Assembly: GCA_013407085.1 (NCBI GenBank)
Contig: JACCGJ010004942.1
Location: 86,250 to 150,249 of the forward strand
DNA: 64,000 nucleotides
Direction of reading: 5' to 3'
Origin: Atriophallophorus winterbourni
Lineage: Eukaryota > Platyhelminthes > Trematoda > Plagiorchiida > Microphallidae
Shown here: positions 16,391 to 58,626 of the stretch, one piece after another
Numbering within the stretch: the first letter of the stretch is position 1
How the letters are laid out: every line of letters begins with the position of its first letter
Notes under the pieces: generated by a model
What the model was told of the DNA's origin: nothing
Seen by the model: only the letters and a program-made list of their open reading frames with translations
Database searches by the model: none
Position numbers and translations under genes: made by a program

Positions 16391-16448
16391 ATGGTTACAA
16401 CAACGATTTTTCTCTTTGTTCTGAAATTTCACTTAATATGTGGAATAA
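16391..16448 (+). CDS. Gene A exon 1 (signal peptide)
   Basis: 58 nt: 19 codons plus one base (phase 1), donor GTAAGT. Met-Val-Thr-Thr-Thr is followed by a hydrophobic core and Cys-Gly-Ile, a typical cleavable signal peptide. The gene B equivalent differs at only two residues and is also 58 nt. Confidence 0.85.
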
Positions 16449-19400
16449 GTAAGTTAATAAATATCGGCGTAAATTGTCTGATATATTCTTCTATTAAATT
16501 TTTAAAGCAACTTGCATTACGGTGTATCTAACACACAGAACGATTTCTGGGCAATTAGAGAAATTTTTTGTAAGCTAATATATTCTCTTATATATCGTTT
16601 AGTGCATAAAACGTATTTTGTCAATAAAGAGCGTCCAAAATATTCAGCAATACATTGCATGATAATAAGCTTATAACAAATATTTTAAACTTTTCGAGCC
16701 CTCTAATAAATATTGTTTGTTAAGAGGGTGAACAATTTTTTCAACCGATAACATACGCAGGAATTTACTCGTTATTCATGAAATTATTCTCAGGTCATCA
16801 GGATGAAGATTTATTCGGCCTTATCAAATGCATTGCTTTTTGATGAGACAATATGACGCTAGGCAACAGTTCTGATATGTAATCCCAATTTATTTCATAA
16901 AAAAACAAGTATTATATGAGTAAGATAGTTAAAGAAACACAGATTGTCGTCAGCCCTCATCGATCTAAGTCAACCTTGGATGTACATCACAGGCATGCTA
17001 CGCAGTTTTTAGAATGAATAAACTGTCCGATGCTCGAGTAAACATTTCATACTGATAAGAGTGCTCAGTCGATCGGCATTATTTGCACGTCGACGGCGTG
17101 ATAGGTAGTTGGGAACCAAGAGCAGTATCTGTTGATTCTCAGTATGAACAAGACGCTTTACACAATTCCTTCAACGTAAACGTTCAGGATCAAGTTCTTC
17201 CAGACTTGAAGTTCAAATACCATTGCAAACGACGTTGTACCGCAAATACGGTCTGCCTGATTGTAGACTTCATCATGGAGCAGATGTTTTGAAATATCGA
17301 CATTTGCTATTTTGTACACATGAATAAGCCAGATTAGGCGGCTCTTTTCTAGTATGGTGCACAGCACTAATCATTTTATCATTCGCCTAATTTACAAATA
17401 CGTTTCTATTATTTTTTTTAATAAAACCATTCTAAATTTTCCTCGTATTTTAATAATTTAAATAAATCATGCAACGACGAAATGAAAAAGACTCAATTGT
17501 GTTCCTTTATTCACTAGCCGTTTCGGAACTAAATTTGGCATTGAACGGATCCCAAAGTATTAGAGTTGAGTTTCCAACAGCAAAAGAAATTGAAACCGGA
17601 GTTCCTGCCGTATACTATCGGATGTTGATACCACAAGGATTAGAAATAACGATATATAAAAATTCAGTAAGCATTGTCTCAAAATACCTTATCTAACCGA
17701 TATATTTATTATTTATAACGATGTCGTTATGAACATTTAAATTCCCGCTTTTCGAAATTGAGTCAGCGTTCGTTTAGGTAAAGCAACATATATTCAATGT
17801 GATGAGAGACACTGATATAAATTAATTTTTTTGGGACGCTCGTTAATACCCCTTATTTGATAACCAGAAGAATGATTAAATCTGTATGAATAAAACTCAA
17901 CTTCGATGCAGTTGAAAATGATCACATTTTGAAAATATGTGACAGAATGAAACTTAAAATTCTGTAAAGTATTGGGATCAGACAGAGGTGGAAAAACAAA
18001 CGGATAGCAAAATTTTCATATTTTATACATAAACATTAAAGTGAATAAATTTGAAATGGGTTGAAGGACAATTTGTATTTGCATGCGTTTCCATCAACAA
18101 CACACCATTCTAAAATAGTTTTATTAATTTCGTTTCATCTCCGCAAGCTTTTAATAGAGATACAAAATGAATATGTGATTTTATATCAATCTTGCAAGTC
18201 AATACTGCATACATTATCCATGGGATTTCGACGAAAGTTAGCGAATAATCAGGTAGAAATTTTATTCTACATTAAATGCGTAAGCGGCTGCAAATATATT
18301 ACAAACAAACGCTTCACATATCTGGTCGGTTTCGTCAAATAAAGCGGCGAAATAAAATAAATTTATTCCAGCGAATGATAAGCCAATTGTTTTCGAGAAC
18401 CAATCAATGTTTTAGTTAAAACTATATTGGTTCATAGCAACAAAATCTCCAAGACTCTTTGTATTAAATGAGACACATGGTAATTAATCACACAGTGTGC
18501 GAGTGATATCCCATTTAAACGTCAGCGATTGCATTGCGAGACATTTTTTGATGAAATTGCAAATAATTTTGTAAACAAATACCACATAAACACTTTTATT
18601 TCACACATTTGCTATTTCCTTCACTGTTTAGACTTAATTGAATGCTTGACAAATGTCACAAGAAATATGAGGTATCATGCTAGATTGATCTTTTCATCCT
18701 GAAAATTAAAAAAATGACGTGAAATACTTTATTCAAAAACAAATAATTTCGTTAGTCTGGCAACATACTGCACGTTTTTATAATTTAAAAGTTTATTTTA
18801 CTACTTGAAACATCTCAGTAGTATCATTTTAATTCGAGATTCAATATTCAAAAATTCATTCAGTAAAAATCCAATAACTATTCAACACCGTAAAATATTG
18901 AATAAAAACAAATTTGGTAAATTAAGGCGTTGTGAAAATTGGAGGTTCCTGTAGGTAAAAATGTCACGGATTCTCGCGGTAAGATCGAAGATATTCGGCA
19001 AACAGACAGAAATCGGAAGTGGTTTGTACGGGGTGGGGATGCGAGCAACATATAATTTCGCACTATTTATGTTTTACCAATTGGTTTTAAGGTGGAATTA
19101 CTAAGCATATATAAATCAAGCTGGTTTCTGAAAAATAATATGCTGGCTGATCCACTAATATCGGAAGGTACCGAAAAAGCTAACAACATTATTTCAACTT
19201 CTTTTACAACAGAGCATTGGAGACCTGGGCTTTTATGATGCTCATAGGAATCGATTTTTCTCGACAAGATACGATCCTGCTGGTTGGATGCGGTACAGCG
19301 CTGGTCGTGAGTTGTGTACGGTTGTCACAAGAAATGATGAATCGTCTCGGCTTTTATTTACGCTACAAGCTGTACCACGTATGTATTCAAAATTGATATG

Positions 19401-22400
19401 ATGGCCCACAAAAAGGAATTTCTCAATATTATTTCTTTTGCGTTGCTGAAAACACTGTGAAAATCTTTTGACGGTTTATGTACTATAATACTTTTTGTTT
19501 GCTTTGTAAATCCAATTTTGAAATTTTATATTTGAATGTATTTCCATCACATCATTTTCATTTCAATTCACAATCATAAATAAGTTTTAACGTAGCACAC
19601 ATGCGCGTTCACATATTTTGATGAAAAGATGCAATGCTAAGACATTTTTCTCGGAATTAAGATACACTTAGCATTTTTCAGTGAATTAATTTGGGTTGTT
19701 TCAATTTTAAGTAACCTTTTGCTACGTAGTATTCATGTCAACAATACAATTACATGAAATAGATGAATTGTGTTATTTCCGCTAATCAGGTGGATGTATC
19801 GAAATAGCAGTGAAGTAGTAACACAATTGATAATTGCAAGAATTGGTTTATGAGAGTTCAAGTGTGGAGATTTGAGGAACAACATAATATGGTTACTTGA
19901 AGCCTTTGGATCGTTTGTCAAGAAATCACTCTGTCATTCGTTATTTATGCACCATGGTTGGTTACACGATCTAAGTTTACCAGTACTTGTAAATTTCTAC
20001 ATGTTTCACCACTTTTTCACCATTTGAAAGCTAATCTACACTGCATCTACATGCTGACTGTACACATGCCAAAGTGGGTTGTGATGTCTAAGTACCAAAG
20101 CTTTTTATATAATGACATTTTTACAATTCTAAATATGTCAAGCTTTGGGTAAATTTTGAAAACTTTGACTTTTCCGGATGGGTTCGTTAAAAACATTAAT
20201 CCACGTTTATTGCGAACCATCTTGACAATTTTACTTTGATTATTCTGAAAGGTTTTCATTATAATTAGTAAACGTTTTATCTAAGATTTTTCTGATTTAA
20301 TCTTTATAACTTTCGGTTTATACATTCAGTTTTACTTCACATTTTTATTTTCTCATTTTAAACTACTCTATGTTCATTTTCTTCCAGATTCCGCACCATG
20401 TAAGTCTTTTCATTGCTGAAAATGTGTTTGAGTGTGTTATACATTTGAGAAATAGTCATTTGAATTTAATCGAGCAGTGATTTTGGAATTTAGATTCGCG
20501 CATTTTGGACAGACTGGGCTTCCCTTTACAGGCTATTTAGGCAAATGTAACCTTGCGTAACCTGGGGTCTTAGAATAAAATCATCGTTGACCCTTTCAAC
20601 TCAGTGGCAATCAATTGCAGACAAATTTCTGATAACAAATTTACCCCATGATGTTGTTGGCATTAGAGGTGCATTAATTTTTTAATAGAAAGATTTTTCA
20701 CTGGAGATCTACACTAGACCTATGGATCAGAAGGACTGATAAGGAATGGAAAAGTTGAAACTTGTAATAAGCAAATACACTGGAAAGGAAACTTGAGGAT
20801 TGCAACTTTATCAGATGCATAGCGATAAGATCAATAATACGTAATCCAAGTATTGTTTGATGAGATTTCGACAAGAATTTCGTTACGATATACATCAAGA
20901 CTGGCGAGGACAGATTAATAGTGTCTTATACCAGCGTTAGTGAAAATTGAATTCGAAGACACAGCATTTTCATGTTTATATTTTCATTAAAATGAAGTGC
21001 TCCGCAATGTAACTTTGTATTTAAAACGAGTATGAGCTGAAGCTTGTGCGGCAATAATTGCACGTGTGTGATGTGCTTTAATTTTGGTGTTTGCAAATCT
21101 CTATTTACACGAATTTTCCAACATTAAAGAGCTTACAACCGGTCTCACTGTTTAAACAATACGATCACGATCCCAAGAATTTGATTCAGTTGATAAAAGT
21201 TAAATAAGATCATAAATTGTGATCAACTATTGAATAAAATGGAAACGGGCGTATGGATAAAGAAGTGATGCATGTATGCCACACTTGGATACGGTTGGTA
21301 CATTCAACTTGTTCAATCACATGATCATACTCTCACTACCTGATGAGTGCAAACAGCAGGAAACCGGCCGTCGGTTGTGTGTGCGTGATGGAGATTCATG
21401 CAAATGAGTTTTAAGATAATGGTCATTGATGCAAACAGAGTCTACATAGGTGTTTGGTCATGTGATTGAACAGACTGCTCGTACCAACCCTATTCAACAG
21501 TGGCATATGTTCGCAACTTGTGTACACTTCTTCCACTGTTTCAAGCGCATGCGTATTCTGATCCTACTTTACCTACCCGATGAGTGCAAACAGCACGAAA
21601 CATGTCGTGGGGTGTCTGTGTCTAATGAAGATGTAAGCAAATGAGCTTATTCCGAAAATATGGATATTTTGTATAAATTCACACCTTAAACTGCATCCAC
21701 ATAACTATCGGTGACATGGGAGTTCAATTTTGTTCACTTAGGTTCAACTGTATCAACGGATGTGGATCCGAATTTCTGTCTTTGCCAGATGAATGTAAAC
21801 CTTTTTGACGTGGTCGTTTTGAGCGTATGATTTGAAAGCTTGCAGAATTGGATGTTTTGTTTGGCCCCATTGGTTGTACCCCATCGCCATGTTTCACCAA
21901 TAGATGTTCTGAATGTCTGTCTTATATGAAAGTGACTGGGAAATTCAACTTTGGTCGAACATTTCCGTAACTTTTCCACCTTGCACTTAACGGATCGTAG
22001 TGTTTGTGAAATGAAATAGTAAGCAAAAATAGATTAATTGGTTCGACCCATGCTTCAGAAATTTGTTCACAAATTAACAATCCGAAGATAGGCTTTATAA
22101 TAATTTTACATTTCATTTGTCAGAATCTATTTGTATTATCATGTTTTTCACGAATTAAAATAAGCAAAACCGTATTATAATAATCTCCTTGCTGATTATC
22201 AAAAATTGTTAAATCATACTTTGAATTAGCTGCAATAAACGTTGTTTTCTTCGAACAGATTCTGTCGACGCTGATGAAGGAGTTGGTGGGTTTCACATTT
22301 AGAGGAAATTCGTACCGTTTTATTTTTCAAATCGAGAAATCCACAAGCGCCTGGAGACAATTGAATGTTAAGCAAGACTGGCTTATTTACAATCAGTTAT

Positions 22401-25400
22401 ATCAATTTATGATAAATTTTCGCTCCAGACACACGAAAAAATTGCTCTCAATTATTATCTACCTTTTAGCACGATTTATTATCGATATGATTTAACTCAC
22501 TTGACAGGAAGTTGAATTGTTGTAGTTGTATCCTAACTGTCACTTGTGCTCAATTCTCGCTAGCTTATGCGGAGGAACTAGGATAAGCGCACTTTGTGGC
22601 GGGATTCAAATGTATACCACCAGATGAACATCCAGCTTTTATGCTGTGCCACCGTAGCCAAGCAGATTACAAGTACGGAAACAAACAATAAATTCGATTT
22701 TATCCAACTCGATATGTAACCAATTACCAGGCTATACCATAGTCAAATGTCTTAACCACCTATAAAAAGCTCATTTGCATACATTTTCATCACACACACC
22801 CCACGACCGGTTGCGTACTGTTTGTGTGTGTGATGGAAATGCACGCAAATGTGCTTTTTTGATCATGGTCATTGATTCAAACACAGTCTACATGGGTGTG
22901 GGCTCATGTGATTGAACATGTTGGTCGTACCAACCTTAGTAATCAGTTGCATACAACCGCAATTTATTTGGCTCAACGACCAGTTTCCTAAGCGCGCCCT
23001 GGAGTAGCAAAGCAAGGTCAAATAAATATAAATATTCCTCGCGATGCATAATGTCATCTGGTAATGAATGTAAGACCGCGGTTATGCGTCGATCCATCTA
23101 TAATTTACCATGTCTACCTCCGGAGCTCATTACGCGAGGCAATTTCAGTTTTCAAAGTTTTTAATGAGCGAATAATAAAGGACCGCACTGATTCTTCACG
23201 AATACCTAAATCCCATCATAATTTAAATTCCGTTCTTGCCTCGTGCACTTCAATCGAAGTTTTCAAGCGAACTTATGCAAACTGTTCCTCATCTACTTCA
23301 TGCCGAACTGGATTTGTATAACCGATCTCGTAAACTCACAGATCGTACAATAGATGATGATTTTATCAACAAGTTTTTGTTATAACAAAATACACGCGAA
23401 ACTATCTCTTGGAATTCTTTCATAACAATTTCCTGTTATTTTTCACTTTTTTGCACGTTTCGGTTGTTCCAACAATGGCGTTTTAACGTTGGGTCGTGCT
23501 ATAAGAGAGATTTCACCAAGTCCACTTTCCTGTTGAAATCACTAAGGCTGGAACACATGCGGTTAACAAGATTGACAGAGGTGAAATCTGCACAATATGG
23601 CACTCGGCACTACGACGAATAAATATTAATTAAGGCAAAATTCTGAATAGTTTTAATTCTATTTATTTATTTATAATCTATTTAACTTATGCACAATTGT
23701 CACACTTTCAACCGTGCACGTGTGAACCAGAATGTCAATTGAAATTGATCGATTTCACACTGGGCTGCTTAAATGAGCCACTTTATCTCGTCTTTGTCTA
23801 CAAGACTTGACTCCCAAGTGATTTCAATAGGCTTTTGAATGAGACAATCAATTAGAGGGGTGAGTGGTACGTACTGACGTTTCTGTTCTGCTATCGCACT
23901 TGATTAGATGATGCTTCTGTGCCAGAAGTGAAAGCTGCCCAAAAGCTGCTCAAACCGATCGCAAATCTTCCCAATCTGGCGCTCGGCACCGATGGGAAGG
24001 CACATATTTTTTATTCACCATATGCCTACTATTTAATTAGAATGTTGTTTTTTCTTCAAAAATAGCCTAAGCTTACCTAATTAGTTTCGTACTTCTACGC
24101 ATGTGGGCAACAGTGTCGACCGACATCGACCGTGTTCACTTGTATTAGATTAATGTGGATACACACTATTAGGAATATCGACCACTGATCCAGTTGATTC
24201 TCACGAGACTTGAGACACTGTAAGCGTACTATAGGCTGTTAAGCGGTATGGTCAAATTAGTGGTGGCGGGTTGACTGCTAATTAGTCATGTTCCTTGTAC
24301 TGACATCACCATTGGCCTGACGAAGTTTCTGTGTCGGAGGTGAAACGTTACCAAAAACCTGCACTAACTGATCACACTCACATTTATTGGCATTATGAAT
24401 GAACAATCGTTCACAAACATATTCCAATCAATCCTCTAAATGATTGTTTTTAATCGTTGTTTTTATGAATTGCTTTCTTTGTATTATAGAGGATTGTGGA
24501 CGGGTTGTGAATGCGTCAAATCCAAGGTTCCCTTTGCATACCATTGGCCCGAATTGTATCAGTTTCATTTACGTTCAACCACTCACGAACAGAAGTTCAA
24601 AAACTGTTAGATTCTCCTCTGAAAGGGTAAATTTATTCGACTTTTTCTACAACACATTTTCTTTGTATAATCCGGATTATTCCGGAAACAACATGCCGAA
24701 CCGTCTTTGCTGACTTCGTTTTGTTTATTGCAAATAGTTTAACATATTTTATTGGAAATCATTCACACATTGCATCTTATTATAGTATTGAGAATTCTGT
24801 TTCATCATTGCAGATCAAAAGACATGGGATGCCAGTTTACATATACCTCGATTATCCATGCATTGAAACGGTAGAGACCCAAATCGGAAATGATGAAGAT
24901 TGTCGAGTTATTCACCCCCAATCCAATCAGCTGACAGTTTTAGTATTATTAAATACTTCGGATACATTTGCAGAAAACGATTACATCGAAGTGGCCGACA
25001 GTGAGTGTTTGGAAATATAACGTTCACGCAATCTTTTCTGTGCATTAAACGATTCATTTTCTGCAAAAAAATCAATTTTTTAGGTGAATTTTACCCTTGC
25101 CCTCATGAGTTTATTCCAACTACGACACCAAGCATCCAGGCTCCATCACGTGAGTTTATTATGTCAAAATTAAATGTTTTGCTGTTCGCTTACTTCGGTG
25201 GATGTCGATCACGGATGTACATCATAAACGCATGAAGTTTTATGCTCCACAGCTTTTCGAATAACTACAATTCTGATTCGCGATAAACAATTTTAACCAC
25301 AGCGTTTACAGCTATAGGTAGTTCTCAAACAATCGACTGCAATTACGTCCTGACGTCGTGAATTAGTAGTAGCAGCGGAAAGCATTATCTGTTTTATAAA

Positions 25401-26610
25401 CGGCTTATAGACAACGATTTGCTGGGTGCTTCCAAGGTGACTGGTCTAGACCAAATTCTTCCAAAGTCGCAGGGTCAAACGTGTTCGTACCGCAAGTGCG
25501 GTCTTCCCAGTTGTAGAGTTAATGAATTCAAAACCCAAAAGAGAAACGTTTTTAGAATACGAACATTATCCATTAGGTACGCATGACCCACCCAGAGTAA
25601 ACAGAAGGGTGAACATGCCGAGTAGAGGTTTTAAGCTGATGAAAAGTAGTAAATGCAGCCAAATTAAATAAATGCTCATATTTCTGAATGTTGTGTAATC
25701 GAGCGTAGCGGAGAATTGTGCGATACCCTTAATTTTTTATTGCCTTGTGGTATGTGAAGCTACATAATGTTGAATATATATATCAAACTTGAAGAATTCT
25801 TTTGCGCTATTCGAATGATTTTGTAAACATAATTGAAAATATAATATAAATATTTATGCTAATAACGTCAATTCGTTAATGATTACAGCTTTGCTGAGAA
25901 ATGATGAAGTTTATAAATTTTGTTCAATGATTGATTCATCATATCACTTAGGAATTATGTATAGAATAAAGGTAACATTCCATGTATCATAGGTAGAATT
26001 GTGGGGTTGCATGGATACTATTTTTTCAACTTTAAAATAAAACATACCGAATTCGCACGGAAGAAATATATTCTCTTAATTCGTCGATTCAATTAAGCGA
26101 AGTTTATCTCAAAAATTTGTATCCGTGAGATTAAAATTTTAATTATAATTATAGCTAAAAATAAACCGAAAAATAAAACTGACGGTATATATATGATTAA
26201 ATTTTAGCCACAACTACCACAACTACGACGACTCAAGCTACAGTTACAGTTCCAAGTGAGTTTTTATCAAGATTAAACATCTTGTTCCTGGGTCACTAAG
26301 ATTATTTTTGAATACCATATGTTAAATGCATAAATGAACAGTAAAACGAAAATACATTATCACCGGTACTTGAACACCAAAAGCGGTTTCTGCCTGTTTG
26401 GCTTCATCAAGTGGAAAATGTAATATCTGGTTTGGTATGTGTTGTAACCTCGGAAAAGTGGTATACACAGTAACACTTTGAAGACATTGTTTAATAAGGA
26501 ATGTACAACGAACCAACGCGGTTCGCTGAAAAACCCTGAAAAACAGTGGCCTAAAAGTCTAAATATATTTAAAAATATAGGTTATTATTATTACTATTCT
26601 TCTTCTTCTT

Positions 26611-26641
<31 letters not shown>

Positions 26642-26650
26642 TTATTATTA

Positions 26651-26685
<35 letters not shown>

Positions 26686-29157: not shown

Positions 29158-29198
29158 ACGATGCATTGCGGAATATCAAAAAATCGAATACAATTAAC

Positions 29199-29935
29199 AC
29201 TTCGTGAATATTGACAATTTATCGTTATTTCGTTGTCATACGAATTAATAATTGTAGCTTACGCCTCGTGCACTCAATTTTCAAATTATTGACTAATACC
29301 TTTAATACTTCGTGAATATTGTCAATTTATCTTTATTTCGTTGTCATACGAATCACGTGTTGCGTCTTACCCCTCGTGCACTCAATTTTCACATTATTGA
29401 CTAATACCATTAATACTTCGTGAATATTGACAATTTATCGTTATTTGGTTGTCATACGAATTACGTGTTGTAGCACTCAATTTTCAAATTATTGACTAAT
29501 ACCTTTAATACTTCGTGAATATTGTCAATTTATCTTTATTTCGTTGTCATACGAATTACGCGTTGCGTCTTACGCCGCGTGCACTCAATTTTCACATTAT
29601 TGACTAACACCATTAATACTTCGTGAATATTGACAATTTATTGTTATTTCGTCGTCATACGAATAACGTATTGTAGCTTACGCCTCGTGCACTCAATTTT
29701 CACATTATTGACAAATACCATTAATACTTCGTGAATATTGAATATTTATCGTTATTTCGTTGTCATTCAAATTACTAGTTCTATTGTACGCCTCGTGCAG
29801 TTATTTTCCAAATTATTGACTAATACCAATAATACCTCGTGAATATTGACAATTTATCGTTATTTCGTTGTCATTCGAATTACTAGTTTTATTGTACGCC
29901 TCGTGCACTCAATTTCCAAATTATTGACTTATTAC
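29199..29935. repeat. 108-bp minisatellite, about 6.8 copies, after gene A
   Basis: Unit starts CTTCGTGAATATTGACAATT. Starts are at about 29199, 29308, 29416, 29511, 29619, 29727 and 29835. Spacing is 108 bp, except one unit shortened to 95 by loss of 13 bp in the CTTACGCCTCGTG part. It begins only 42 nt after the stop codon, so it may lie in the 3' untranslated region. The gene B side has about two units. Confidence 0.9.
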
Positions 29936-30679: not shown

Positions 30680-30693
30680 CTTTATATATATAC

Positions 30694-45768: not shown

Positions 45769-48700
45769 CTGCAAAAGAGAAATTTCGATATTCCAGTAAA
45801 ATGTGTATATAATTCAAACTATGAATATATATTAAGACATTCTGCTAATAACTTTACATTCACAAATGTGGTCAACAGATTTTTCCAATGTATATTTATT
45901 AAATAAAGTGTGTATGATTATGTGCATAAGACAACCTAGTACCCGAAATATTGTGTTTTTCTAGTAGCTCATCTCAAATCTCACCAACGTTTAATTACTT
46001 GTAACCGTCGCAATTTTTTCAATTTTCTCACATGAGATGGTGCATTTTTTCTTACATGTGATCTAATAGTTTTTCAACAACTTATCTTTATCAGTCAATT
46101 AGCAAATAAAGACACATCTGCACTGTCTTGAACATAGCGTTGATGGACAAAGTAATAAAAGCTGAAGTGTGTTCTAAACCTGGTCTACGGTGCATGTTCA
46201 CTCTAGTACTCTACTCTATTGTGAGCGATTGAGCAGACCACACATGCGGTAGAAGGACGTTCGCAAAAGACATATGAAAGTTCTTGACTCTGTTCGTTGG
46301 GAAGAATTGCTCTTGGTCGCTCAATTTTAAGGCACTGTGTAGAGCTTTGACTCCAAGAACAATGAGACTAGATACTACTTTCAGATGGTAATTGGAGATC
46401 GCGCATTCAGTATGCAACATGCGACGATTGTTCGAGATCAACCTATAGATGCCAGCGCTGCAAGTAAGGCAATGCGTTAAATTAAGTGTTACATTTGCCA
46501 TTCTGTTTTAATTGATTAAACCCGATTGTGCACTGCTCGAGTAAAATTTAACCCATTTATGTGGACAAAATATTGTGCAGATATGAACAAACTGACGAAA
46601 TTGAGAACTTACCAGCAAATGCTGCTGATACTTTTTTCGTCGTAGGTGAGGTCACTTGTGAAAATAAATTTAAAATTTGATAAATAATGCATTTCAATTT
46701 AGCAGAATATTAGCATGTCTAATAAGATTCCATACTGAACAATTTCGGTTAAGTTATAAATAGAAAAAAAATTGATGTGAGGAGAGAATTTCATCGTTTT
46801 TTTAAGAAATTGTCTAACTTATATCTGCGCGGCAATTTGAAGCGTTAAGGATGCTATTATCTTAAAGCTTTACTGTACGGAATTGAAACCTGGAACACCA
46901 ACGTAAGATACGAACGGAAGCTGAATGCTTTTCATGTAAGAAGCATCCGTCGTATCTTGAGCATATCGTGGATGGACAGAGTGATTAATGCTGAAGTGGC
47001 TAGGTCATGTCTTCAGAATGGATAATGGTCATATTCCGAAAGATCAACTCAATGGTAAGTTGCAATCAGGAAGTCGAACTTTGGGCAGTCGCACTTGAAA
47101 AAAAGATATGAAATATATTAACATTGACTCTGAGTGTTGGAAAATACTTGTTCTTGATCTCTCTTATTGGAGGCATTGTGTAAAGCGTCGCCTGCAAGCT
47201 GGGGAGGAGCAGATACAGCTATGGGCTGCTGAACGCATATCACACAATGCAATATTAAGGCTGTTGCATTTAACATTTTTCACTATAATCAAGGACCATT
47301 AAAATAACAATTTACATGACGCACATTATATACTTCATGAAATTAATGCTTGGAACATAAGTGTTCTTTTACACTAGCCACTAAATATTGAGATGATATA
47401 GAAATAGGAAAAATATATTGCGAGCGTAGACACGTAAATGTCATCTATCTGCATTATATCACTTTAGTTTTTAGATATTTCAGTTAAATCAAATAAACTA
47501 TCTATATAATCGGGAACAAGGACGACTATTATAATTCAAACGAACGAACGTTTACCCATTTACCAAACAAGAAGTAATTACCGCGATATTGGGTAAATCT
47601 AATTCACAGAGTTATCAAGAACAGCATCAACAAATAATATGGTACGTTAGAAAAGAGTAACGTACTCTAATATTTTTGAAACAATACGAGATGGTAATAA
47701 TTTATTCGCTATAATTTCTAACAAATCGGTCAGTGTGAGATATTAACCGAAAATGCGGACACCTTATGTTTTATCTCGAATACGATGGCATAACGCTTAT
47801 ATCCACCTAATTATCTATTCTGCCGAAAAACTCTTTCTCAATATCTGAAATATGCAAATCTAAATCGTTGCAAAACTGAATCAATATTGTGTTAAATTAA
47901 TAAGAAGTAATTTAAACATAACACAAATTTTCGTGGACTTTTACTACAAAATTGTAATAGTAGTATGATCTGATCAACTGTGATGATTGTTAAGGAAATA
48001 ATAATAATAACATTAGTAATAATAAAAATAATATTAATAAAAATAATAATAATAATAATATTAACCTTTAATGTCAAACACATTTAGACTTTTAAGCCAC
48101 TGTTTTTCATGGTTCTTACAGCGAACCACAATGGTTCGTTGTACAAACCTTATTAAACAAGTCCTTTAAAGTGTTACTGTGTGCACCACTTTTCCGCTGT
48201 TACAAAACTCACTGCACCTGATATTATTTTTTCCACTTGATGAAACCAAACAAGCAGAAACCGGTTTTGGTGTTCAAGTTCTTGTGATAATGAATTTTCG
48301 TTTTACTGTTCATCTATGCAGTTAACATATGGTATCCAAAAATAATCTGAGTGACCCAGGAACAAGATATATAATCTTGTTAGAAACTCACTTGGAACTG
48401 TAACTGGAGCTTGAGTCGTCGTTGTTGCGATAGTTGTGGCTAAAATTTAATCATATATACCGTCGATTTTAATTGTCTGTTCATTTTTATCTATTATTAT
48501 AACTGAAATTCTAAATTGAAGAACACAAATTATTGAGATAAACTTCGCTTAATTAAATAGAAGAATTGAGAGAATATATGTCTTCCGTAAAAATTCGGTA
48601 TGTTTTATTTTAAAATTGAACAAAATAATATCCATGCAACATCACAATTCTTCCTATGATAAATAAAAAATCCTAGCTTACTTGAATTTGTTTTCCGAGC

Positions 48701-51700
48701 TTGTTGATTTTGCATCGGACGTTTCGTTGCCAGACTCGGCAACATCTTCAGCGATTGTTGGCAAATTGACGGCTCGAAGTGGCACTGACAAAGGTATTTG
48801 GCCGGCTGACAACTGGTCACGTGATCGCATGTGATTGATTGATTGATTGGCTGCCTTTTCAGTTCTTCGTCTCAGTCGCATCCTTGCGTAGATGTCGTCC
48901 AAGCCAACGTGTTCGTTGATCGATCGTTCACCGGAGTGCCAGGCCGTGGACGTTTACTACTTTTACTACACGAATCCATGAGCATCAACTGGCCGTACGA
49001 CGTCACGACACCAAGTCTCTCATATCAACACACGTCGACAACGAAGATCATGAGATGGACTGGCATAACTGCCACATCTTGGGCCGAGCTAATAACAAAG
49101 CAGCACGATAGTTCATCGAAGCCTGGTACTCCGGTGAACGATCGATCAACGAAAACGTGAGCTTGGACGACATCTACGCAAGGATGCGACTGAGACGAAG
49201 AACCGAAAAGGCAGCCAATCAATCAATCAATCACATGCGATCACGTGACCAGTGGTCGGCCGGCCAAATACCTTTGTCAGTGCCACTTCGAGCAGTCAAT
49301 TTGCCAACAATCGCTGAAGATGTTGCCTAGTCTGGCAACGAAACGTCCGATGCAAAATCAACATGCTCGGAGAACAAATTCAAGTGAGCTACAACAACGA
49401 CCCGAGCTACAAATATTCCAAACAATACTAACATAAAATGTTACCTTTATTTTATACATTTTAAGTGATATGATGACTCAATCATTGAAAAAAATGTATA
49501 AACATCATTATTTTTGAGCGATGGTGTAATCATTAAAGAAATGGCGTTATTAGCAGAAATCTTGATTATTATAATTGGAATTGTTTACAAAATCATTCGA
49601 ATAACGCAATAGAATTCATTCCGTTTATTTTACTTGTCTCAAGTTTGATATCTACATTTTCAACATTATGTAGCTTCACTTACCACAAGCCAATAAATAA
49701 TTAAGGGTATCGCACAATTCTCCGCTACGCTAGATTACACAACATTTATAAATATGTGCATGCATTTAATTTGACTGCATCTACGACATCTCATTAACTT
49801 ACAACGTCTGCACGTCATGTTCACCCCTCTGTGACAGCGCCGTTTACTCTGGTTCGGTCATGTGTATACAATGGATAATGTTCGTATTCCAAAAAGTTTC
49901 TCTTTTGGGTGTTGAAATCATTAATTCTACAATTTGGAAGACCGCACTTTCTGTACAAAAACGTTTGACCCTACGAGTTTAAAAGATTTTTTTTAGACCA
50001 GTCACTTCGGAAGCACCGAGCAAAGCGTTCTCTATAAGACCTTTATAAACGAGATAATGCTTTCGGCTGCTACTACTTGTTCACCTCGTCAGGACGTAAT
50101 TGCGGCCGATTGTTTGAGTACTAATTCTAGCTGTGAACGCTGTGGCTAAAATGTTTTCTCCCGAATCAGACTTTTAGTCATTCGAAAAGCTGTGGAGAAT
50201 AAAACGCAATGCGCAAATAATGTACATCCATGATCGACATCCATCAAAGGAAGCTATCAACAACAAAATTTTATTTTCGACATATTGAACTCACTTGATT
50301 GAGCCACGTTATTTGGTGGCGTAGTTTGAGTACAAGGATGGGTTGCATCTGAAAAATGGATTTTATTGCAGAAAATGAATCGTTTATAGCACAAATCAGA
50401 TTGCGTGAATGTTATATTTCCAAACACTCACTGTCGGCTACTTCAATGAAATCGCCTGGTTCAAATGTATCCGAAGAATTTAATAATAATAAAATTGTCA
50501 CCTGATCCGATCTGGGGTAAAAAGGTGCACAATATCTATCCTTTCCCATTGTGGTCCATGGGGCATCAACGCATGGATTATCGATAAATATGTAAACTGG
50601 CTGCCCATATCTTTTAATCTGTAATGATGGAACGAAATTCAAAATGTCATCATAAGATGAATTGCTTAATTGATTTTCAAGAAAATATTTTAAAACAATA
50701 TGCAATAAGCAGAACGTAGTCACCAAGTCGGTTCAGCATGTTAATCCCGAATAATCCAGCTTATAAATAGAAAATGAGTCGTAGAAAAAGTCAATTAAAT
50801 TTACCCTTTCTGACGAGTATCTGATAGTTTTTGCACTTCTATTCGTGAGTCGTTGAACGTAAATGAAATTCATACAACGCTGAGTAATGGTAGACAAATT
50901 GAACCTTGGATTTTCCGCAGCCACAACTCGTCCACAATCGGCTATAATACAAAGGAAGTAATTCATGAAAATAATTTTAAAAAACAATCGGTTAGAGGAT
51001 TTTTTGGAATATGTTTGTGAACCATCCCGTATTTATAATGCAAAGAAATTTGAGTGCAATCGGTTAGGGCAGATATTTGGTAACGTTTCACTTCTGACAC
51101 AGAAGCTTCGTCAGACACTTTGCAAACTGGAGTTCCCTGGCATTAAGAGCTCCGGTGGTAGACGTGGTAAATTATGGACAGGTGGACGGCATCATACATC
51201 GCGACAAACGGTTTCAGATGGAAAATTACGATTTATTTTAACTCTTATCTCTAGTTGAGGGCGTGATTAGGAAACAGGTCGTTAAACCAAACAAGTTGCG
51301 CTTGTATGCCACTGTTTAATGAGGTTGCTACGCCCAACATTTTCTATCACGTGTCCAAACTAGTTTCCATAACACACACAGTATGAAACCGGTCGTGGGG
51401 TGTTTCATGCAAATGTATTCATATGAGCTTTTTACAAGGTCATTGAGACATGTGTCCATGATATAGCTTGGTGAGTGTTTATACACCGAGTTGGATAATA
51501 CAAAATTTCTTGTTGGTGTTCGTACTTGTTTTCTGCTTGGCTACGGTGGCACAGCAAAAAGCTGGATGTTCGTCTGGTGGTATAGATTTGAATCCCACCA
51601 CTAAGTGCGCTTAACCCCTGGCGCGAATTGTTTACAAGAGATAGTTAGAATAGTTAAACATCCTGTCCAGTGAAGTAAATCATATCAATAATAAATCGTA

Positions 51701-54700
51701 CTAAAAAGAAGAGAATAAATAAAAGCAAATATTTTCATGTATCTGGAGCGTGTGTCTGTATATAAGCCAGTCCTGCTCAATATTCAATTGTCTTCAGACG
51801 CTTGTAGATTTCTAGATTTAAAAAATAAAACGTTATGAATTTCTTCTATAGGTGAAACCGACCTGTACTTGTATCAGCGTCGATAGAATCTGTTCAAAAA
51901 TAAAACAACGTTTATTGCAGCTAAGTCAAAGTATGATTTAACAAGTTGTGATAAACAGCAATGAGAATATTATAACACGGTTGTGCGTTGTTTTTTAATT
52001 CTTGAAACACATATGATTCTACAAATAGCTTCTGACAAGCGAGATGTAGATTTGTCATAAAAGCTTATTTTCAGATTCTTAATTTATATATTGATCTATC
52101 AGCGTAAACAAATTTTTGAAGCATGCCGCGAAACAGATAATGTATTTTTGCTTACTATTTCATTTTACAAACACTGCGATCCGTTACGTGCAAGATGGAA
52201 AAGTAACGGAAATTTTTGGCTAAATTTGAATTTCCCAATCACTTTTATATAAGAAAGACATTCCTAACAGGCTTAATTTATTGATGAAACACGGCGATGG
52301 GGTACAACCAATGGGGCCAAACAAAACATGCAATTCTGCAAGCTTTCACATTATACACACGCTACGACCAGGTTAGTACAGTTCACATTCATCTTGCGAA
52401 GACAGAAATTCGGATCCACATCCGTTGATACAGTTGAACATAAGTGAACAAAAATTGAATTGCAATGTCACCTAAGGCTATGTGAATGCAGTTTAGGGCT
52501 TGAATGTTTACAAAATATTCATATTTTCAAAATAAACTCATTGGCATGCATCTTCATCAAACCTACACTCCACGATCGGTTTCGTTCTGTTAGCACTCAA
52601 CAGGTAGGGAAAGAAGAATCAGGATCCGCATGGGCTTGATACAGTGGAAGAATGGAAAATAGTTGCGATTGTATTCCTTTGTTTGTTGAGCTTGTTACGC
52701 CTAATTTTTTAATCACATGATCCCAGACTCAGGTATACTGTGTTTGCAAAAATGACCATGAACAAAAAGCTCATTTGAATGCATTTCCAACACACACTCG
52801 ATTACCGGTTTCGTGCTGTTTGCACTCATCAGATAGAGACAGTAACGCAAGTTGTTTATCCATACTTTCGTTTTAATTTTATTCAATAGTTGCTCCGAAA
52901 TTATGACCTCATATAACTTTTATCAAATGTATCACATTATTAGGATCCTGATCCTATTGTTTCAACGGTGAGACCGTTCGTGAAGATTTTGATGTTGAAA
53001 AATCTTGTAAATAGAGATTTGCAAACACCAACATTGAACCACATCACACACATGTAGGTATGTATTTGTGATATTCAAAAGTATTGTCACACAAGCTTCA
53101 GCCCGTACTCGTTTAAAATTCAAAGCTACATTACGGAGCACTTCTTTTTTAATTAAAATATGAACATGAAAATGCTAATGTCTTCGAATTCAAAAATCAC
53201 CAAAGCAGGTGTGAGACACTATTACCCTGTCCTCACTAGTCTTGGAGCTTATCGTAACGAAGTTCTTGTAGAAATCTCATCAATTAATACTTGAATTACG
53301 TATTATTCATTTTATCTCTATGCAACTGATAAAATTGCACTCCTCAAGTTTCCTTTCCAGTGTATTTGCTTATTACTAGTTTCAACTTTTCCATTCCTTA
53401 TCAGTCCTTCTGATCCAAAGGTCTAGTGTAGATTTCCGCCGAAATCCTTCTATCAAAAATTTGTTGCACTATTAATTCAAACATTATCAGGGGGTAAATT
53501 TGTTTACAGAACTTTGTCTGCGATTGATTGCAACTGAGTTGAAAGGGTCAAGGATGATTTTATCCTATGTTGCCATGTTAACCAAACCCAGTTTACGCAT
53601 GTTATCATTTGCCTAAATAGCCTGAGAAGGGAAGCCCCGTCTGTCCATAATGTGCGAAGCTAAATTCCAAAATCACTGCTCGACAAAATTTAAATGACTA
53701 TTTCTGAAATGTATAACACACTCAAACACATTTTCAGCAATGTAAAGACTTACATCCTCCGCTATCTGGAAGAAAATCAACACGGAGTAATTTAAAATGA
53801 GAAAATAAAAATGTGAAGTAAATTTAAATGTAAAAAACCTGATGTTATACAGCTAACATCAAAAGAGTTCTTAGATAACAATTTTACTAATTGGAATGAA
53901 AACCTTCAAGAATAATCAAAGTAAAATTGTCAAGATGGTTCGCAATAAACGTGGATTAATGTTTCTAACGAACCCATCCGGAAAAAATCAAAGTTTTCAA
54001 AATTTACCCAAAGCTTGACATATTTAGAATTGTAAAAATGTCATTATATAAAAGGCTTTGGTACTTAGACATCACAACCCACTCTGGCCTGTGTACAGTC
54101 AGCATGTTGAGGCAGTGCAGATTAGCTTTCAAATGGGGGAAAAAGTGGTGAAACATGTAGAAATTTGCAAGTATTTTTCGGAATATAAGGCGCACATAAA
54201 AACACTAATTTGTAAGAAAAATCGGAAGTAAGCCTTATATTCCAGTGCCCCTCATGTATAAAATAGTGTATGTTCACACTGTGCTGAAAAATCTGTCAAA
54301 ATGTTTTATTACGAGGAATTTGATGGATTCGTAGAAGAGTAATGATTAAAAAAGTTAGTGTACTTTTTATGTAATATTGGCAGTTATTGTTCATGATTTG
54401 AATAAAGTCTGACCTATCCGACTATTTTTTGTTTCGCTTTATGCGCCGTATATTTCAGTGCGTCTTATATATGAAAACATATCGTTCACTGATACTGCGT
54501 CTTATTATAAGGTGTGCCGTATAGTCCGAAAAATACGGTACTGGTAAACTAAGATCGTGTAACAAACCATGGTGCATAAATAACGAATGACAGAGTGATT
54601 TCTTGACAAACGATCCAAAGGCTTCCAGTGACCATATTATGTTGTTCCTCAAATCTCCACTCTTGAACTCTTATAAACCACTTCTTGCAATTATCAATTC

Positions 54701-57700
54701 TGTTACTACTTCACTGCTATTTCGATACATCTAAGCTCAGTGTTATCATCTGATGAGCGGAAAAGACATATACCATTTGTTGTGTGTAATTGTGTTGTTG
54801 ATGCGAGTATTATATAGCATAATGGTACACTAAAATTGAAAAAACCCATATCACTTCACTGAAAAATGGTAATTGTGAATTCCTTAAATGCTGAAAAAAT
54901 ATTCTTAGCATTGCATCTTCTGAGCAAAATATGTAAATGCACATCTGTGCTACGTTACAACTTAGTTATGATCGTGAATCGAAATAAAAATGAAGTGATG
55001 GAAATGCATGCACATAAGCTGTTTTAAAGGTGGTTTTTACAAGGCAAGCAAAAATTATTATAGTATTTAAACCGTTATTAAATTTTTACTGTGTATTCAG
55101 CAACGCAAAAGAAATGATATCGAGAAATCTCATTATGTGGGTCATCATATCAATTTTGAATACATACGTGGTACAGCTTGTAGCGTAAAGGAAAGCGGAA
55201 ACGTTACATCATTTCTCGTGATAACCACACATAATTCACGACCAGCGGTGAACTGCATCTTTAAATCATTATCGAATCCTGTCCCGAAAAATCGATTATT
55301 ATGAGCATCATAAAAGATCAGGTCGCCAGAGCTCTGTCGAAAAACAGGATGAAATAACATTGACACCTTTGTTGGTAACGCGGGACATTAGAGTATCAGC
55401 CAGCTTAAAGATTTTTACAAAACCAACTGGATTTTTTTATGCTCAGTAATTGAACCATAAGATCCATTCGTAAAACTTAAGTAATGCAAAATAATGTTTT
55501 GCTCACATCTCTGGACTTAAACAACACGACCGGTTTCTGGATGTTGGCCGTCATCAGGTAATGCAACTAGACGTGATATTTATTTTAACGAATATTTTGT
55601 TATCTTACAGAGAAAATCAATGACCTTTTACCTACAAAAACCCTCAAATTACTCAACGCCTTCATTCAACCATTTTTGTTTTAATACAATATTTTACGAT
55701 GTTGAATATTTATTGAATTTTTATTAAATCTATCTGTGAATATTGAATCTGAAATTAAATATACACTACTCAGATATTTCAAGTGGTAAAATAACCGAAT
55801 TTAAAACTTTAAAATTATAATGAGTAGCATGTTGCCTGTCTAAAGAAATTATTTGTTTTGGAATAAAATATTTTACTTCGTTCTTTAATTTTCAGGATTG
55901 AAAGATCAAACAAGCATGATACCTCATAATCCTTGTGACATTTGTGAAGCATTCAATTAAGTGTAGACAGTAAAGAAAATAGCAAAATTTGTAAAATAAA
56001 AGTGTTGAAATTGTATTGATTTGAAATAACAATTCCAATTTCACCGAACAATGTCTCGCAATGTGATCTTGGAAGCAGAAATAGGAGATCACCCTTAAAC
56101 TTTGTGATTGATTTAATTGTGACTTCTCTAATACAGAGAAACGTGCAGATTTTGCTGGGTTGAACTTATATAGTTTTAACTAAACGTTGCTTGGTACTCG
56201 GATTTTTGTTTCACGCTCTAAGCATTAATTTTCGAAAAATTTTCTTGCGTACAACGAAACATAATTTCGAAAGTACGGAAGTGGAATATCTATGAGCCAA
56301 GCTACTGCGTTCATTGTGCTCCCGATCGATATATTTATGTATACATGTTTGTTTATTTTGGAAAAATTATGGAATCAGATCCAACATAGCTTTCCGTGAC
56401 TATTATTTGAATCGAATTCTTTTAGGATTGACCTTGTCAAACGAATCCAGATTAATCTAAAACAAATGGTCCATCATAAGCTAAAATAAATATCTGATTT
56501 TGCCATTTTAGTTACGTAAAATAGACCGAATATTTGAAGCGCTTGTTAGTAATATATGTTCACGCGCTTAGGCGTTTAAAGTAGAATAAAATGTCTACTT
56601 ATTTTATACGCTTACATCCGTTGAAAACTTATGGATAATGTTAGCAGTATTGAGCATCAAGATCGATGAAAATCACATTTTAATTAAGTATCTCTATTTA
56701 AATCTTGAAAAGATAGAACGAAATAAACAAACTATGTTTCGGTAATATTGAACATTTCGGGAAAAACATGGTGTCCTGTGAAAATAAATAACCTGAGAAT
56801 GATCCATGAAAGAAGTGCGAATTGAGCAATAGTTTTATAGTAAAATTCAGACCAAGAATTCCATCTGGTATACTCAGGTGCCTATGAAGTAATTCCTACA
56901 TTTCTCGATGCATGTAGTGCAGAATGTTGTGAGTGATTGAAAAAAAAATTTTCCTCAAAACCAATTCAACTATTTTGTCTATATAATTTATGTATAAAAT
57001 GTGATAATTTCGCTTTTCATTTGTTTTTCCTTCTTAATCGGATCCCGAAACTTGAACAAAATTGTAAGTTATATTTTGTCACATATTCTCAAAATTTGAT
57101 CATTTTCAAATTGATCGAAATTAACATTATTTAGACACACGTAATCATCATTCTGGTTTGCAAATAATGAATATTAACGAGCGTCCAAAGAATATTTAGT
57201 TTACATCAGTGTCTCACATCACATTGAATATAGTTTGCTTTAGTGGAACTAAATTTAAAGCAAATTCGAAAAGCGGAAAAGCGATACAAATAATAAATAT
57301 ATCGGTTAGAAGAGATATTTTGAGACAATGCTTACTGAATTTTTATATATCGTTATTTCTAATCCTTGTGGTATCAACATCCGATAGTATATGACATGAA
57401 CTATGTTTGCGATTTCTTGCGCTGTTGGAAATTCAACTTTCACATTTTGGGTTCCGTTCAATGCCAAATTCATTTGCGAATAGTCAACTGTATAAAGGAA
57501 CACAAATGTAGGCTTTCATTTCGTTGTGGCATGATTTATTTATACTAATAAAATATGGGTAAAATTTGGAAAGGTTTTCATCAAAAAATAATGGAAATGT
57601 ATTTGTTAAGTAACGGAGTGATAAAATGTTTAGTGCTAGTGCACCCTATTAGGAGATAGCTGCCTACTCTGGTTTGTTCATGTGTACAAAATGGCAACTA

Positions 57701-58626
57701 TCGATATTTCAAAAGATCTACTCCACGGTGACATCTACAATCGTTCAGAACAGATTTACGGTACAACGCCTTTTGCTATGGTATTTAAATTTCAAGTCAG
57801 GAAGACGTTGATCCTGACCGTTACCTTTGAAGGAATTGTGTAAGGCGTCTTGTTCATACTGTGAATCAACAGATACTGCTCTAGGTTCCCAACTGCATAT
57901 CACGTCGACGTGCAAATAACACAGAGCGATTATGTAATATTTATCAGTTCTGAAATGTTTACTCCAAAATCGAACAGTTTAATCTAAATCGTGCGTAGCA
58001 TGCAACTAGGGATGAACATCAATGGTCGACTTCGATCGATGAAGACCGACTACAATTCGCGTTTGCTTACTAGCCTTTCCTACTCATATAATTCCTATTT
58101 TTTTGGAATTAAACGTGTTTACATATCGCAACTGTTGGCCAGTATCATATTATTTCTTTAAAAGACAATGTATTTGCAAAAGCTGAAAAATATTCCATCC
58201 TGATCACTTATTTATAATTTTATACATAATGAGGAAATTTCAACGCAAACTGTCGTTTAAAACAAATTGTGTACATTATTAACCTTTAAGATTTATTTAA
58301 GGGCACAAATCTTTCTAAATATGTTTTGTAAGCAAATTATTCTGCAGTTTTGTTTAAGATTTTAAACGATTTTTTTATTGAAATAATACATTTTTATGCA
58401 CCCAAAGATATGCAAGAGAATATAAAGGTACTATAACAAATTTGAGGACATTTCTTTCATTAATTGCCAGAAATCAAATTCTGTTTAAAATACACCGTGA
58501 CGCAAATTGCTTTCCGAATTTAATAGAAACATATATTAGAGAAATTATGTCAAATTTAAGTAACTTACTTATTCCACATATTAAGTGAAATTTCAGAACA
58601 AAAAGAAAAAACGTTGTTGTAATCAT
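45704..58626 (-). CDS. Gene B: paralogue of gene A (11 exons, inverted)
   Basis: Predicted spliced gene of 315 residues on the minus strand. Exons in transcription order: 58626-58569, 57487-57336, 55333-55168, 53765-53754, 51889-51863, 50941-50805, 50618-50432, 50348-50295, 48439-48392, 46654-46613, 45768-45704 (TAA). Intron phases are identical to gene A. It has a signal peptide, two CUB-like domains (the second with four Cys), 12- and 27-nt micro-exons, a Thr/Pro-rich stalk and a hydrophobic C-terminus. Six or so Asn-X-Ser/Thr sequons are present, including one (NAT) opening exon 8. No stop or frameshift is seen, so both copies appear intact. Expression is presumably driven by its own TATA promoter. 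Function unknown; secreted or surface location is inferred from the signal peptide and stalk. Confidence 0.85.
46110..46400 (+). mobile_element. RTE-like fragment in gene B intron 10
   Basis: Plus strand. NIALMDKVIKAEVCSKPGLR-like frame at about 46132, then the RRTFAKD/WEELLLV C-terminal region. Counterpart of 28400-28760. Confidence 0.45.
46613..46654 (-). CDS. Gene B exon 10 (42 nt)
   Basis: 42 nt, phase 1 both sides, acceptor TTTTCACAAG, donor GTAAGT. It encodes Thr-Ser-Pro-Thr-Thr-Lys-Lys then Ser-Ala-Ala-Phe-Ala. Confidence 0.75.
46850..47280 (+). mobile_element. RTE 3' fragment in gene B intron 9
   Basis: Plus strand. ALRMLLS-type start, RYERKLNAFHVRSIRRILSI-like at 46910, a GHVFRMDNGHIP-like segment at 47005, and YINIDSECWKILVLDLSYW at about 47115. 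Counterpart of 27430-27870. Confidence 0.65.
47998..48062. repeat. AAT microsatellite in gene B intron 9
   Basis: Imperfect AAT/ATA repeat, counterpart of 26580-26692 without the TTC tract. Confidence 0.9.
48392..48439 (-). CDS. Gene B exon 9 (Thr-rich, 48 nt)
   Basis: 48 nt, phase 1 both sides, acceptor GATTAAATTTTAG, donor GTGAGT. Thr-rich like gene A, with Ile and Ala interrupting the Thr run. Confidence 0.8.
48673..49430. mobile_element. Penelope-like element piece (GIY-YIG domain) with inverted copy
   Basis: About 760 bp in gene B intron 8, absent from the equivalent place in gene A (about 25978-26000). The plus strand from 49030 reads NEDHEMDWHNCHILGRANNK, one stop, FIEAWYSGERSINENVSLDD, IYARMRLRRR, and a hydrophilic tail to about 49390. 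The order Asp-His, Trp, Leu, Arg and a conserved Glu-Ala-Trp is that of the C-terminal part of Penelope GIY-YIG domains. The last 270 bp (about 49115-49390) recur inverted at 48676-48945. Decayed, one in-frame stop before FIEAW and another later. Confidence 0.6.
49790..50260 (+). mobile_element. RTE 3' fragment in gene B intron 8
   Basis: Plus strand. WFGHVYTMDNVRIPKSFS-like segment at 49855, then decayed C-terminal and 3' flank (CATCCATGATCGACATCC at about 50225). Counterpart of 25310-25650. Confidence 0.5.
50295..50348 (-). CDS. Gene B exon 8 (stalk, 54 nt)
   Basis: 54 nt, phase 1 both sides, acceptor CCATTTTTCAG, donor GTGAGT. It opens with an N-glycosylation sequon (NAT) and is Thr/Pro/Asn-rich. 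It is 12 nt shorter than in gene A and otherwise hardly alignable. Confidence 0.8.
50432..50618 (-). CDS. Gene B exon 7
   Basis: 187 nt, phase 0 to 1, acceptor CCATCATTACAG, donor GTGAGT. Both Cys are conserved. About half of the residues differ from gene A, concentrated between PVYIF and the NSSDTF block. Confidence 0.85.
50805..50941 (-). CDS. Gene B exon 6
   Basis: 137 nt, phase 1 to 0. It starts Ala-Asp-Cys-Gly-Arg and ends Ser-Ser-Glu-Arg before GTAAAT, and has the FIYVQ block. The sequon NLS replaces the NAS of gene A at a nearby position. Confidence 0.85.
51280..51450 (+). repeat. Hammerhead-repeat fragment in gene B intron 5
   Basis: Holds the 3' part of a ribozyme (GAAACCGGTCGTGGGG at about 51388) on the plus strand, preceded by a CACACA tract instead of the CTGATGA half, and unit boxes. 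It is the inverted-arm counterpart of 22765-22960. Confidence 0.6.
51863..51889 (-). CDS. Gene B micro-exon 5 (27 nt)
   Basis: 27 nt flanked by acceptor TTTTTGAACAG and donor GTCGGT, phase 1. It encodes Ser-Ile-Asp-Ala-Asp-Thr-Ser-Thr. Homologous to 22259-22285 and to the stray copy at 40674-40700. Confidence 0.8.
52566..52612 (-). ncRNA. Degenerate hammerhead ribozyme
   Basis: Minus strand: CTGTTGA (one core substitution) at 52603-52597, GTGC/GAAC stem II with one mismatch, GAAA, then CCGATC and GTGGAG. It is 229 nt from the better copy at 52832, giving a dimer. Confidence 0.55.
52793..52840 (-). ncRNA. Hammerhead ribozyme, best-conserved core
   Basis: On the minus strand: exact CTGATGA (52832-52826), perfect stem II GTGC/GCAC with AAACA loop, exact GAAA (52812-52809), then CCGGT and a GTA cleavage triplet in place of GTC. 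Stem I pairs CTCTAT with ATCGAG, with one mismatch. Both strands of stem I differ from the other copies yet still pair, which could be compensatory change. Lies in intron 4 of gene B. Confidence 0.7.
53754..53765 (-). CDS. Gene B micro-exon 4 (12 nt)
   Basis: 12 nt flanked by acceptor GATTTTCTTCCAG and donor GTAAGT, phase 1. It contributes His-Ser-Gly-Gly. Same size and position as in gene A. Confidence 0.8.
54174..54537. mobile_element. MITE with terminal inverted repeats
   Basis: About 364 bp with imperfect inverted ends (TTTTTCGGAATATAAGGCGC and, reversed, TTTTTCGGACTATACGGC) and a GTA target duplication. The left arm has the uninterrupted site at about 19983-19990 (CCAGTACTTG). It lies in gene B intron 3. 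No coding capacity. The TTCGGACTATAAGGCGC-type end resembles a widespread animal MITE, from memory only. Confidence 0.75.
55168..55333 (-). CDS. Gene B exon 3
   Basis: 166 nt, phase 0 to 1, acceptor TGTTTTTCGACAG, donor GTATGT. It carries the GDLIFYDAH, AGREL and FTLQAVP blocks. The segment between them (roughly ten residues) is unrelated to gene A. Confidence 0.85.
57336..57487 (-). CDS. Gene B exon 2
   Basis: 152 nt, phase 1 to 0, acceptor TTCCTTTATACAG. One codon longer than in gene A at the 5' edge. Contains the sequon NGT and the conserved YYRMLIPQGLE block. Confidence 0.85.
57640..57960 (+). mobile_element. RTE 3' fragment in gene B intron 1
   Basis: Counterpart of 17040-17370 (FVHVYKMATIDISKDLLHG-like frame on the plus strand). 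Its presence in both introns shows the insertion preceded the duplication. Confidence 0.6.
58569..58626 (-). CDS. Gene B exon 1 (signal peptide)
   Basis: 58 nt, start ATG at 58626, donor GTAAGT just beyond 58569. It encodes Met-Ile-Thr-Thr-Thr-Phe-Phe followed by a hydrophobic core. An upstream in-frame ATG at 58731 would precede the TATA region, so the internal ATG that matches gene A is chosen. Confidence 0.85.

Follow-up and report, generated by a model that had tools for sequence, protein, structure and literature searches.

The micro-exon genes (MEGs) of schistosomes are described, in the part of the literature consulted, as genes in which most of the coding region lies in very small symmetrical exons (PMC4350168). 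The size of these exons is given as 6-81 bp in the main text of another account and as 3-81 bp in its abstract (PMC10526429). The polymorphic mucins of Schistosoma mansoni (SmPoMuc) are described as a multigene family with glycosylated repeats and exchange between copies, in which exons stay different while introns are homogenised (PMC2576457). CUB domains (PF00431) and nematode CUB-like domains (PF02408) are a further point of comparison; RBT-1 of C. elegans is described as a CUB-like protein anchored by glycosylphosphatidylinositol (GPI) (PMC7228132). We analysed a window of 64,000 nucleotides (the whole stretch of DNA, positions 86250-150249 of contig C3501) and searched the 537-Mb genome assembly of 15,840 contigs from which it comes. 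The window carries two convergent genes, A and B. Our favoured reading, which draws on analogy and to which we give a probability of about 0.55, is that they belong to a trematode multigene family of glycosylated, tethered or shed two-domain proteins that would most likely act at the host interface. The trematode eggshell synthesis domain (TES), which we take from its name to be a trematode marker, exceeds the Pfam cut-off at six places in this genome and in none of 14 control genomes. Therefore, we read the source genome as that of a trematode.

Both genes were re-derived with 11 exons each (E1-E11), at the ends that the original prediction had given (A, 16391-29157 on the forward strand; B, 58626-45704 on the reverse strand) and with GT/AG at every internal junction. 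The predicted products have 318 (A) and 315 (B) residues. Exon lengths were as claimed apart from E2, which is 149 nt in A and 152 nt in B, where the acceptor lies 3 nt further upstream. The rest of the predicted plan was borne out: E4, E5, E8, E9 and E10 are phase 1 on both sides in both genes, the 12- and 27-nt exons lie between the two pairs of domain-coding exons (also in two relatives, C and D, described below), and the symmetric exons E8 (66 nt in A, 54 nt in B), E9 (48 nt) and E10 (42 nt) encode a stalk. The re-derived features are as follows, with additional grounds in brackets.

16341..16349, forward: TATA-like run about 40 nt before the gene A ATG (read by eye)
16391..16448, forward: gene A exon 1, 58 nt, signal-peptide-like (hydropathy)
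17518..17666, forward: gene A exon 2, 149 nt, first half of domain 1
19213..19378, forward: gene A exon 3, 166 nt, second half of domain 1 (relatives in the genome)
20388..20399, forward: gene A exon 4, 12-nt micro-exon, phase 1-1 (length and splice sites kept in B, C and D)
22259..22285, forward: gene A exon 5, 27-nt micro-exon, phase 1-1 (27 nt also in relatives)
24490..24626, forward: gene A exon 6, 137 nt, first half of domain 2 (genome matches)
24814..25000, forward: gene A exon 7, 187 nt, second half of domain 2 (genome matches)
25084..25149, forward: gene A exon 8, 66 nt, stalk, one Cys
26208..26255, forward: gene A exon 9, 48 nt, Thr-rich stalk
28029..28070, forward: gene A exon 10, 42 nt, stalk
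29093..29157, forward: gene A exon 11, 65 nt, hydrophobic C-terminus and stop (identical in A and B; hydropathy)
58569..58626, reverse: gene B exon 1, 58 nt
57336..57487, reverse: gene B exon 2, 152 nt
55168..55333, reverse: gene B exon 3, 166 nt
53754..53765, reverse: gene B exon 4, 12-nt micro-exon
51863..51889, reverse: gene B exon 5, 27-nt micro-exon
50805..50941, reverse: gene B exon 6, 137 nt
50432..50618, reverse: gene B exon 7, 187 nt
50295..50348, reverse: gene B exon 8, 54 nt, stalk
48392..48439, reverse: gene B exon 9, 48 nt, stalk
46613..46654, reverse: gene B exon 10, 42 nt, stalk
45704..45768, reverse: gene B exon 11, 65 nt, hydrophobic C-terminus and stop

A TATA-like run, again read by eye, also lies about 40-45 nt upstream of the gene B ATG (window 58671-58689). 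Runs at this distance from the ATG would give both genes very short 5' leaders.

This gene plan resembles that of schistosome MEGs in several respects: a flatworm family, a putative signal peptide, small symmetric exons, long introns and a high ratio of nonsynonymous to synonymous substitution (dN/dS) in the mature protein (PMC4350168). However, 80% of the gene A coding sequence lies in exons of 58-187 nt, mostly those of the two domains, whereas E4 and E5 together make up 39 of the 957 coding nt (4%) and all five symmetric exons 195 (20%). The micro-exons serve here as a linker and the short symmetric exons as a stalk. Because micro-exons contribute so small a share, the family is not a MEG family by the published definition (PMC4350168), and the kinship with MEGs that had been proposed does not hold in the strict sense. 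The likeness to SmPoMuc, compared by description only, lies in the traits named above, whereas a two-domain ectodomain with a micro-exon linker does not appear in the part of the SmPoMuc description consulted (PMC2576457). The repeats also differ: here they are whole stalk exons, with one or two copies of E9 in each gene looked at.

Genes A and B lie one in each arm of an inverted duplication, which was delimited by blastn of arm against arm:

14291..32431, forward: left arm, holding gene A
42890..60814, reverse: right arm, holding gene B

Introns are about 80% identical when the arms are compared. The A-B intron difference is 17.3% over 10,152 unfiltered aligned positions and 16.9% over 9,537 positions in well-aligned stretches. 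We rejected an allelic or assembly duplication as the origin of the pair, as the arms are about 20% diverged and lie on the same contig. Since both copies sit in one inverted duplication and their introns match too, the agreement between A and B is by itself weak evidence for the gene models, and it was not accepted as independent evidence. The two copies also differ in larger pieces. A fold-back element of about 770 bp (window 48664-49431) lies in intron 8 of gene B and has no counterpart at the matching site of gene A; its ends are inverted arms of 271 nt (48674-48944 and 49121-49391) that are 96% complementary. About 1.16 kb in intron 5 of gene A (window 23159-24316) is missing from gene B. 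A 108-bp tandem repeat follows directly after both stop codons, with about seven copies past gene A (29187-29929) and two past gene B (45456-45675).

Genome searches showed that speaking of a pair of genes, as the original prediction did, understates the finding. Matches numbered at least 37 with domain 2 of B and at least 30 with domain 1, and queries from a second subfamily gave at least 22 with its domain-1 exon and at least 39 with its domain 2. Either domain occurs on 27 contigs. Of the 18 contigs on which both domains occur over all query sets, 17 have them in the expected order on one strand, with domain 1 upstream and no more than 15 kb between them; the figure is 16 of 17 contigs when only the A/B-type queries and one match of the subfamily-2 domain-1 exon are counted. 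The exception, contig C7385, has the domains in the wrong order and probably holds two neighbouring genes, since both halves of a domain 2 stand ahead of its domain 1. We count roughly twenty loci. Some members (C6260 and C8404; C2802 and C11352; C10073 and gene A) are each represented by two equally scoring matches on different contigs, as would be expected if the assembly had retained both haplotypes. The count is loose because such matches are probably haplotig twins.

The relatives repeat the exon plan. Every junction of the A/B plan is present in relative C (C3501:31481-17369), and relative D, which runs down from 39256 on C1329, has every junction from E1 to E10; no E11 turned up in the part of that locus examined. 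A large part of the plan is also present in relatives E and F and in the loci G, K and P of subfamily 2, which is 38% identical to A in domain 2. The paralogues C and D repeat the splice sites, including those of the 12- and 27-nt exons. The domain order and strand on 17 of 18 contigs are the decisive support for the predicted genes, and together with the kept reading frame and the recurrence of exon edges in relatives they indicate that the observation is more than chance.

The first linker exon, E4, measures 12 nt in genes A-D and again in F (C11352:88929-88940), and A and B differ in it at 5 of 12 bases with no change in length. The second, E5, has 27 nt in all four of genes A-D. Locus E (on C6260) has a 27-nt E5, read by eye and with a weak donor; no 12-nt exon was found there at the filter used. 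F yielded no 27-nt exon similar to E5, and one candidate of that length has a weak donor. Between the domains of each of the loci G, K and P lie a single 21-nt candidate and then a single 27-nt candidate, both in phase 1 and with strong splice sites. In shuffled sequence, 0.04-0.20 such candidates are expected on average per locus and length, the lengths of 21 and 27 nt having been chosen after a scan of K and P for 9-30 nt and not preset. The scan of K also gave two 15-nt candidates, and G, scanned afterwards over the same range, gave just the 21- and 27-nt ones. The E5 peptides SVDADEGV, SIDADTST, STDIDHAT, TMDHDQST and TTDHDGET have acidic and hydroxyl residues in common, whereas that of locus E, TVTHHFHT, differs. 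Judged from phase alone, each of the symmetric exons could be skipped freely, as the original prediction proposed.

The predicted protein has two domains of about 105 residues, each encoded by a pair of exons that a phase-0 intron separates. Four Cys of domain 2 are invariant in all 10 aligned members, and domain 1 has a single Cys. There are 5 N-X-S/T sites in A and 6 in B, and Ser, Thr and Pro make up 51-55% of the stalk. The length of E8 is 66 nt in A, 54 nt in both B and C, 39 nt in D and 72 nt in F, always divisible by 3. A single E9 was found in A and in B, and two copies in each of C, D and F. Since E8 and E9 are phase 1-1, a change in stalk length, by evolution or by splicing, leaves the frame undamaged. 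E8 carries one Cys in A, B, C, D and F, so that skipping it may not be neutral. By hydropathy, the twelve most hydrophobic 11-residue windows all lie at the two ends of the protein. The hydrophobic N-terminus of about 19 residues would fit a signal peptide, as judged by hydropathy, and the hydrophobic run at the C-terminus suggests a possible tether. This C-terminal run qualifies the claim that the protein is secreted.

The original prediction recognised no named family, and the libraries searched gave no significant match to one. In Pfam, whole proteins and domains gave weak hits only (DUF3439, E 0.79; SSP160, E 6.6; DUF5061, E 0.14). No significant relative was found among PDB sequences (best E 0.13), nor in a collection of 5.8 billion proteins from public genomes and metagenomes, which was queried with protein A and a domain-2 alignment. 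The family appears undescribed in the sense of having no significant match in these three sources; animal collections lay outside them. Rfam and tRNA searches gave no significant result. In the titles and opening lines of abstracts on trematode CUB-like, GPI or micro-exon families, none was recognised as the A/B family.

The original prediction also called the domains CUB-like. It is a real possibility, which we put short of even odds, that they are divergent versions of the CUB fold, of its nematode CUB-like relative or of some other beta sandwich, and that the family is a trematode counterpart of tethered CUB-like proteins such as RBT-1 (PMC7228132). The length of about 105 residues and the possible tether recall these proteins. 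In a CUB domain four Cys form two disulphides; domain 2 has four Cys, domain 1 only one. In the same genome, 20 canonical CUB matches exceed the cut-off, and many of them cover part of the domain, with half a domain per exon as in genes A and B. The best Pfam hint for domain 1 is galactose-binding-domain-like (GBD_T9SS_assoc, E 0.032, in 2 of 8 members), which is not significant. On the other hand, the A/B family is not among the 20 CUB matches, and neither Pfam CUB nor CUB_2 matched A or B (up to E 10) or 18 domain sequences (up to E 5), an absence limited by the HMMER filters, which remove most matches above E of about 0.1. The nematode CUB-like family was absent from the Pfam scans and had no match in the genome search, in which its 14 controls were silent too. 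Domain 1, with its one Cys, also fits poorly, and its comparison with domain 2 by hhalign was not significant (probability 0.9%). With no CUB profile match in a genome that has canonical CUBs, "CUB-like" remains an impression. The hhalign result likewise gives no support for an internal duplication from which both domains would descend. An alignment of CUBs from the same genome had misaligned exon fragments and was not used.

Genes A and B differ by 18.7% in exons against 17.3% in introns, and the frames stay open. Over all exons, A-B dN/dS is 1.35 (bootstrap 0.91-2.09). In a neutral simulation, the ratio of nonsynonymous to synonymous differences (Nd/Sd) between A and B gave P of 0.019 for all exons and 0.009 for E1-E7; by part, P was 0.052 for domain 1, 0.098 for domain 2 and 0.58 for the stalk. 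E7 is the fastest-changing part, with dN/dS of 1.74 (A-B), 2.43 (B-D), 2.45 (C-D), 1.64 (B-C), 1.43 (A-C) and 0.97 (A-D). Genes B and C share 96.8% identity along 11 kb (window 51115-62103 against C3501:17369-31481), with identical E1-E5; identity is 91% over window 49431-51116, and the 3' parts are more diverged. This difference along the genes suggests a recent duplication of B and C with patchy exchange.

A host-interface family could work as follows. The protein would enter the secretory pathway and be held at the membrane by a C-terminal signal (GPI-type or a short anchor), or be shed. The stalk would carry O-glycans and the domains N-glycans, and two variable binding domains would be shown to molecules of a snail or vertebrate host. 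A repertoire of variants, comparable to those of schistosome polymorphic mucins and MEG products as these are thought to work, would then arise from duplication, patchy exchange, rapid amino-acid replacement in E7 and alterations of the stalk and linker exons.

Several points weigh against this interpretation. A likelihood test with a codon model, omega fixed at 1 against omega free, was non-significant in all five regions (p 0.08-0.52), with kappa stepped over a grid under omega=1 only. In E6, dN/dS is 0.07-0.28 among B, C and D, which is strong conservation, compared with 0.94-1.57 against A; the low values suit a constrained function in this part. Two basic residues lie within the hydrophobic run of the C-terminal tail, MSLLIMSLILRKLLL, which is unusual for a GPI signal, and such a tail is short for a membrane span. 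The host-interface location itself is argued by analogy and not from a result obtained here. In summary, the evidence for positive selection is mixed, and because the omega=1 test was non-significant our claim is limited to evolution that is fast and unevenly constrained, and does not extend to positive selection.

The appeal to analogy also leaves room for the main rival, namely a protein for adhesion or recognition during reproduction or development, in which change is driven by sexual conflict or species recognition and not by the host. From general knowledge, paired extracellular domains, a Thr-rich stalk and fast-changing paralogues would also fit gamete or pairing molecules. Against this, a family of roughly twenty loci that vary in stalk and linker would exceed what is expected of gamete proteins, and we consider this rival doubtful.

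A true member of the MEG class, in which E4, E5 and E8-E10 serve mainly alternative splicing and yield many variants per gene, is unlikely. In its favour, the five exons are uniformly phase 1-1 with lengths of 12-72 nt, E4 is 12 or 21 nt depending on the subfamily, the number of E9 copies varies, and the putative signal peptide and high dN/dS are reminiscent of MEGs as described in the source consulted (PMC4350168). However, besides the small coding share of the micro-exons, E5 keeps its 27 nt in genes A-E and also at G, K and P, and such strict conservation of length rather suggests a fixed linker. The family may still work like a MEG if these five exons are alternatively spliced. That A and B are decaying, neutrally drifting copies while other copies of the family function is very improbable: overall dN/dS is near 1 by the codon model and exons are no better conserved than introns, but none of 1500 exon sets simulated neutrally at the intron substitution rate stayed free of stops (6.8 new stops on average), all junctions of A and B are intact, and the exon length differences of 3 and 12 nt are multiples of 3, whereas 89 of the 99 intron gaps no longer than 30 nt have lengths that 3 does not divide.

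A further reading, which we hold less likely than not, is that this is an undescribed trematode family and a hybrid of MEGs and polymorphic mucins. Ordinary domain exons would be combined with a micro-exonic hinge, 12 or 21 nt and then 27 nt, that is kept across deep paralogues and joins the two extracellular domains, and the tether would be a stalk that grows longer when its exons duplicate. Splicing and exon copy number might then tune hinge and stalk in a repertoire of host-facing receptors or decoys.

Elsewhere in the window are remains of mobile elements. An RVT_1 match above the cut-off (62415-62774, reverse strand) marks the remains of a reverse transcriptase. A second remnant of reverse-transcriptase type lies at 38269-39606 on the forward strand, with a weak endonuclease match below the cut-off at 38269-38850. 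Window 38764-39673 is found again on contigs C1329 and C11800 and is thus a fairly young repeat, as these copies are 87-93% identical.

The exons of the family are short and no Pfam profile covers them, so that annotation by profiles would miss it. If the genes are transcribed as predicted, a sizeable parasite gene family would escape such annotation. If the reading is true, the use of micro-exons in flatworms would extend from small secreted peptides to the linkers of two-domain, probably surface-tethered proteins. The family also makes it possible to test directly whether protein diversity at a parasite surface is created by micro-exons and by the exons of the stalk.

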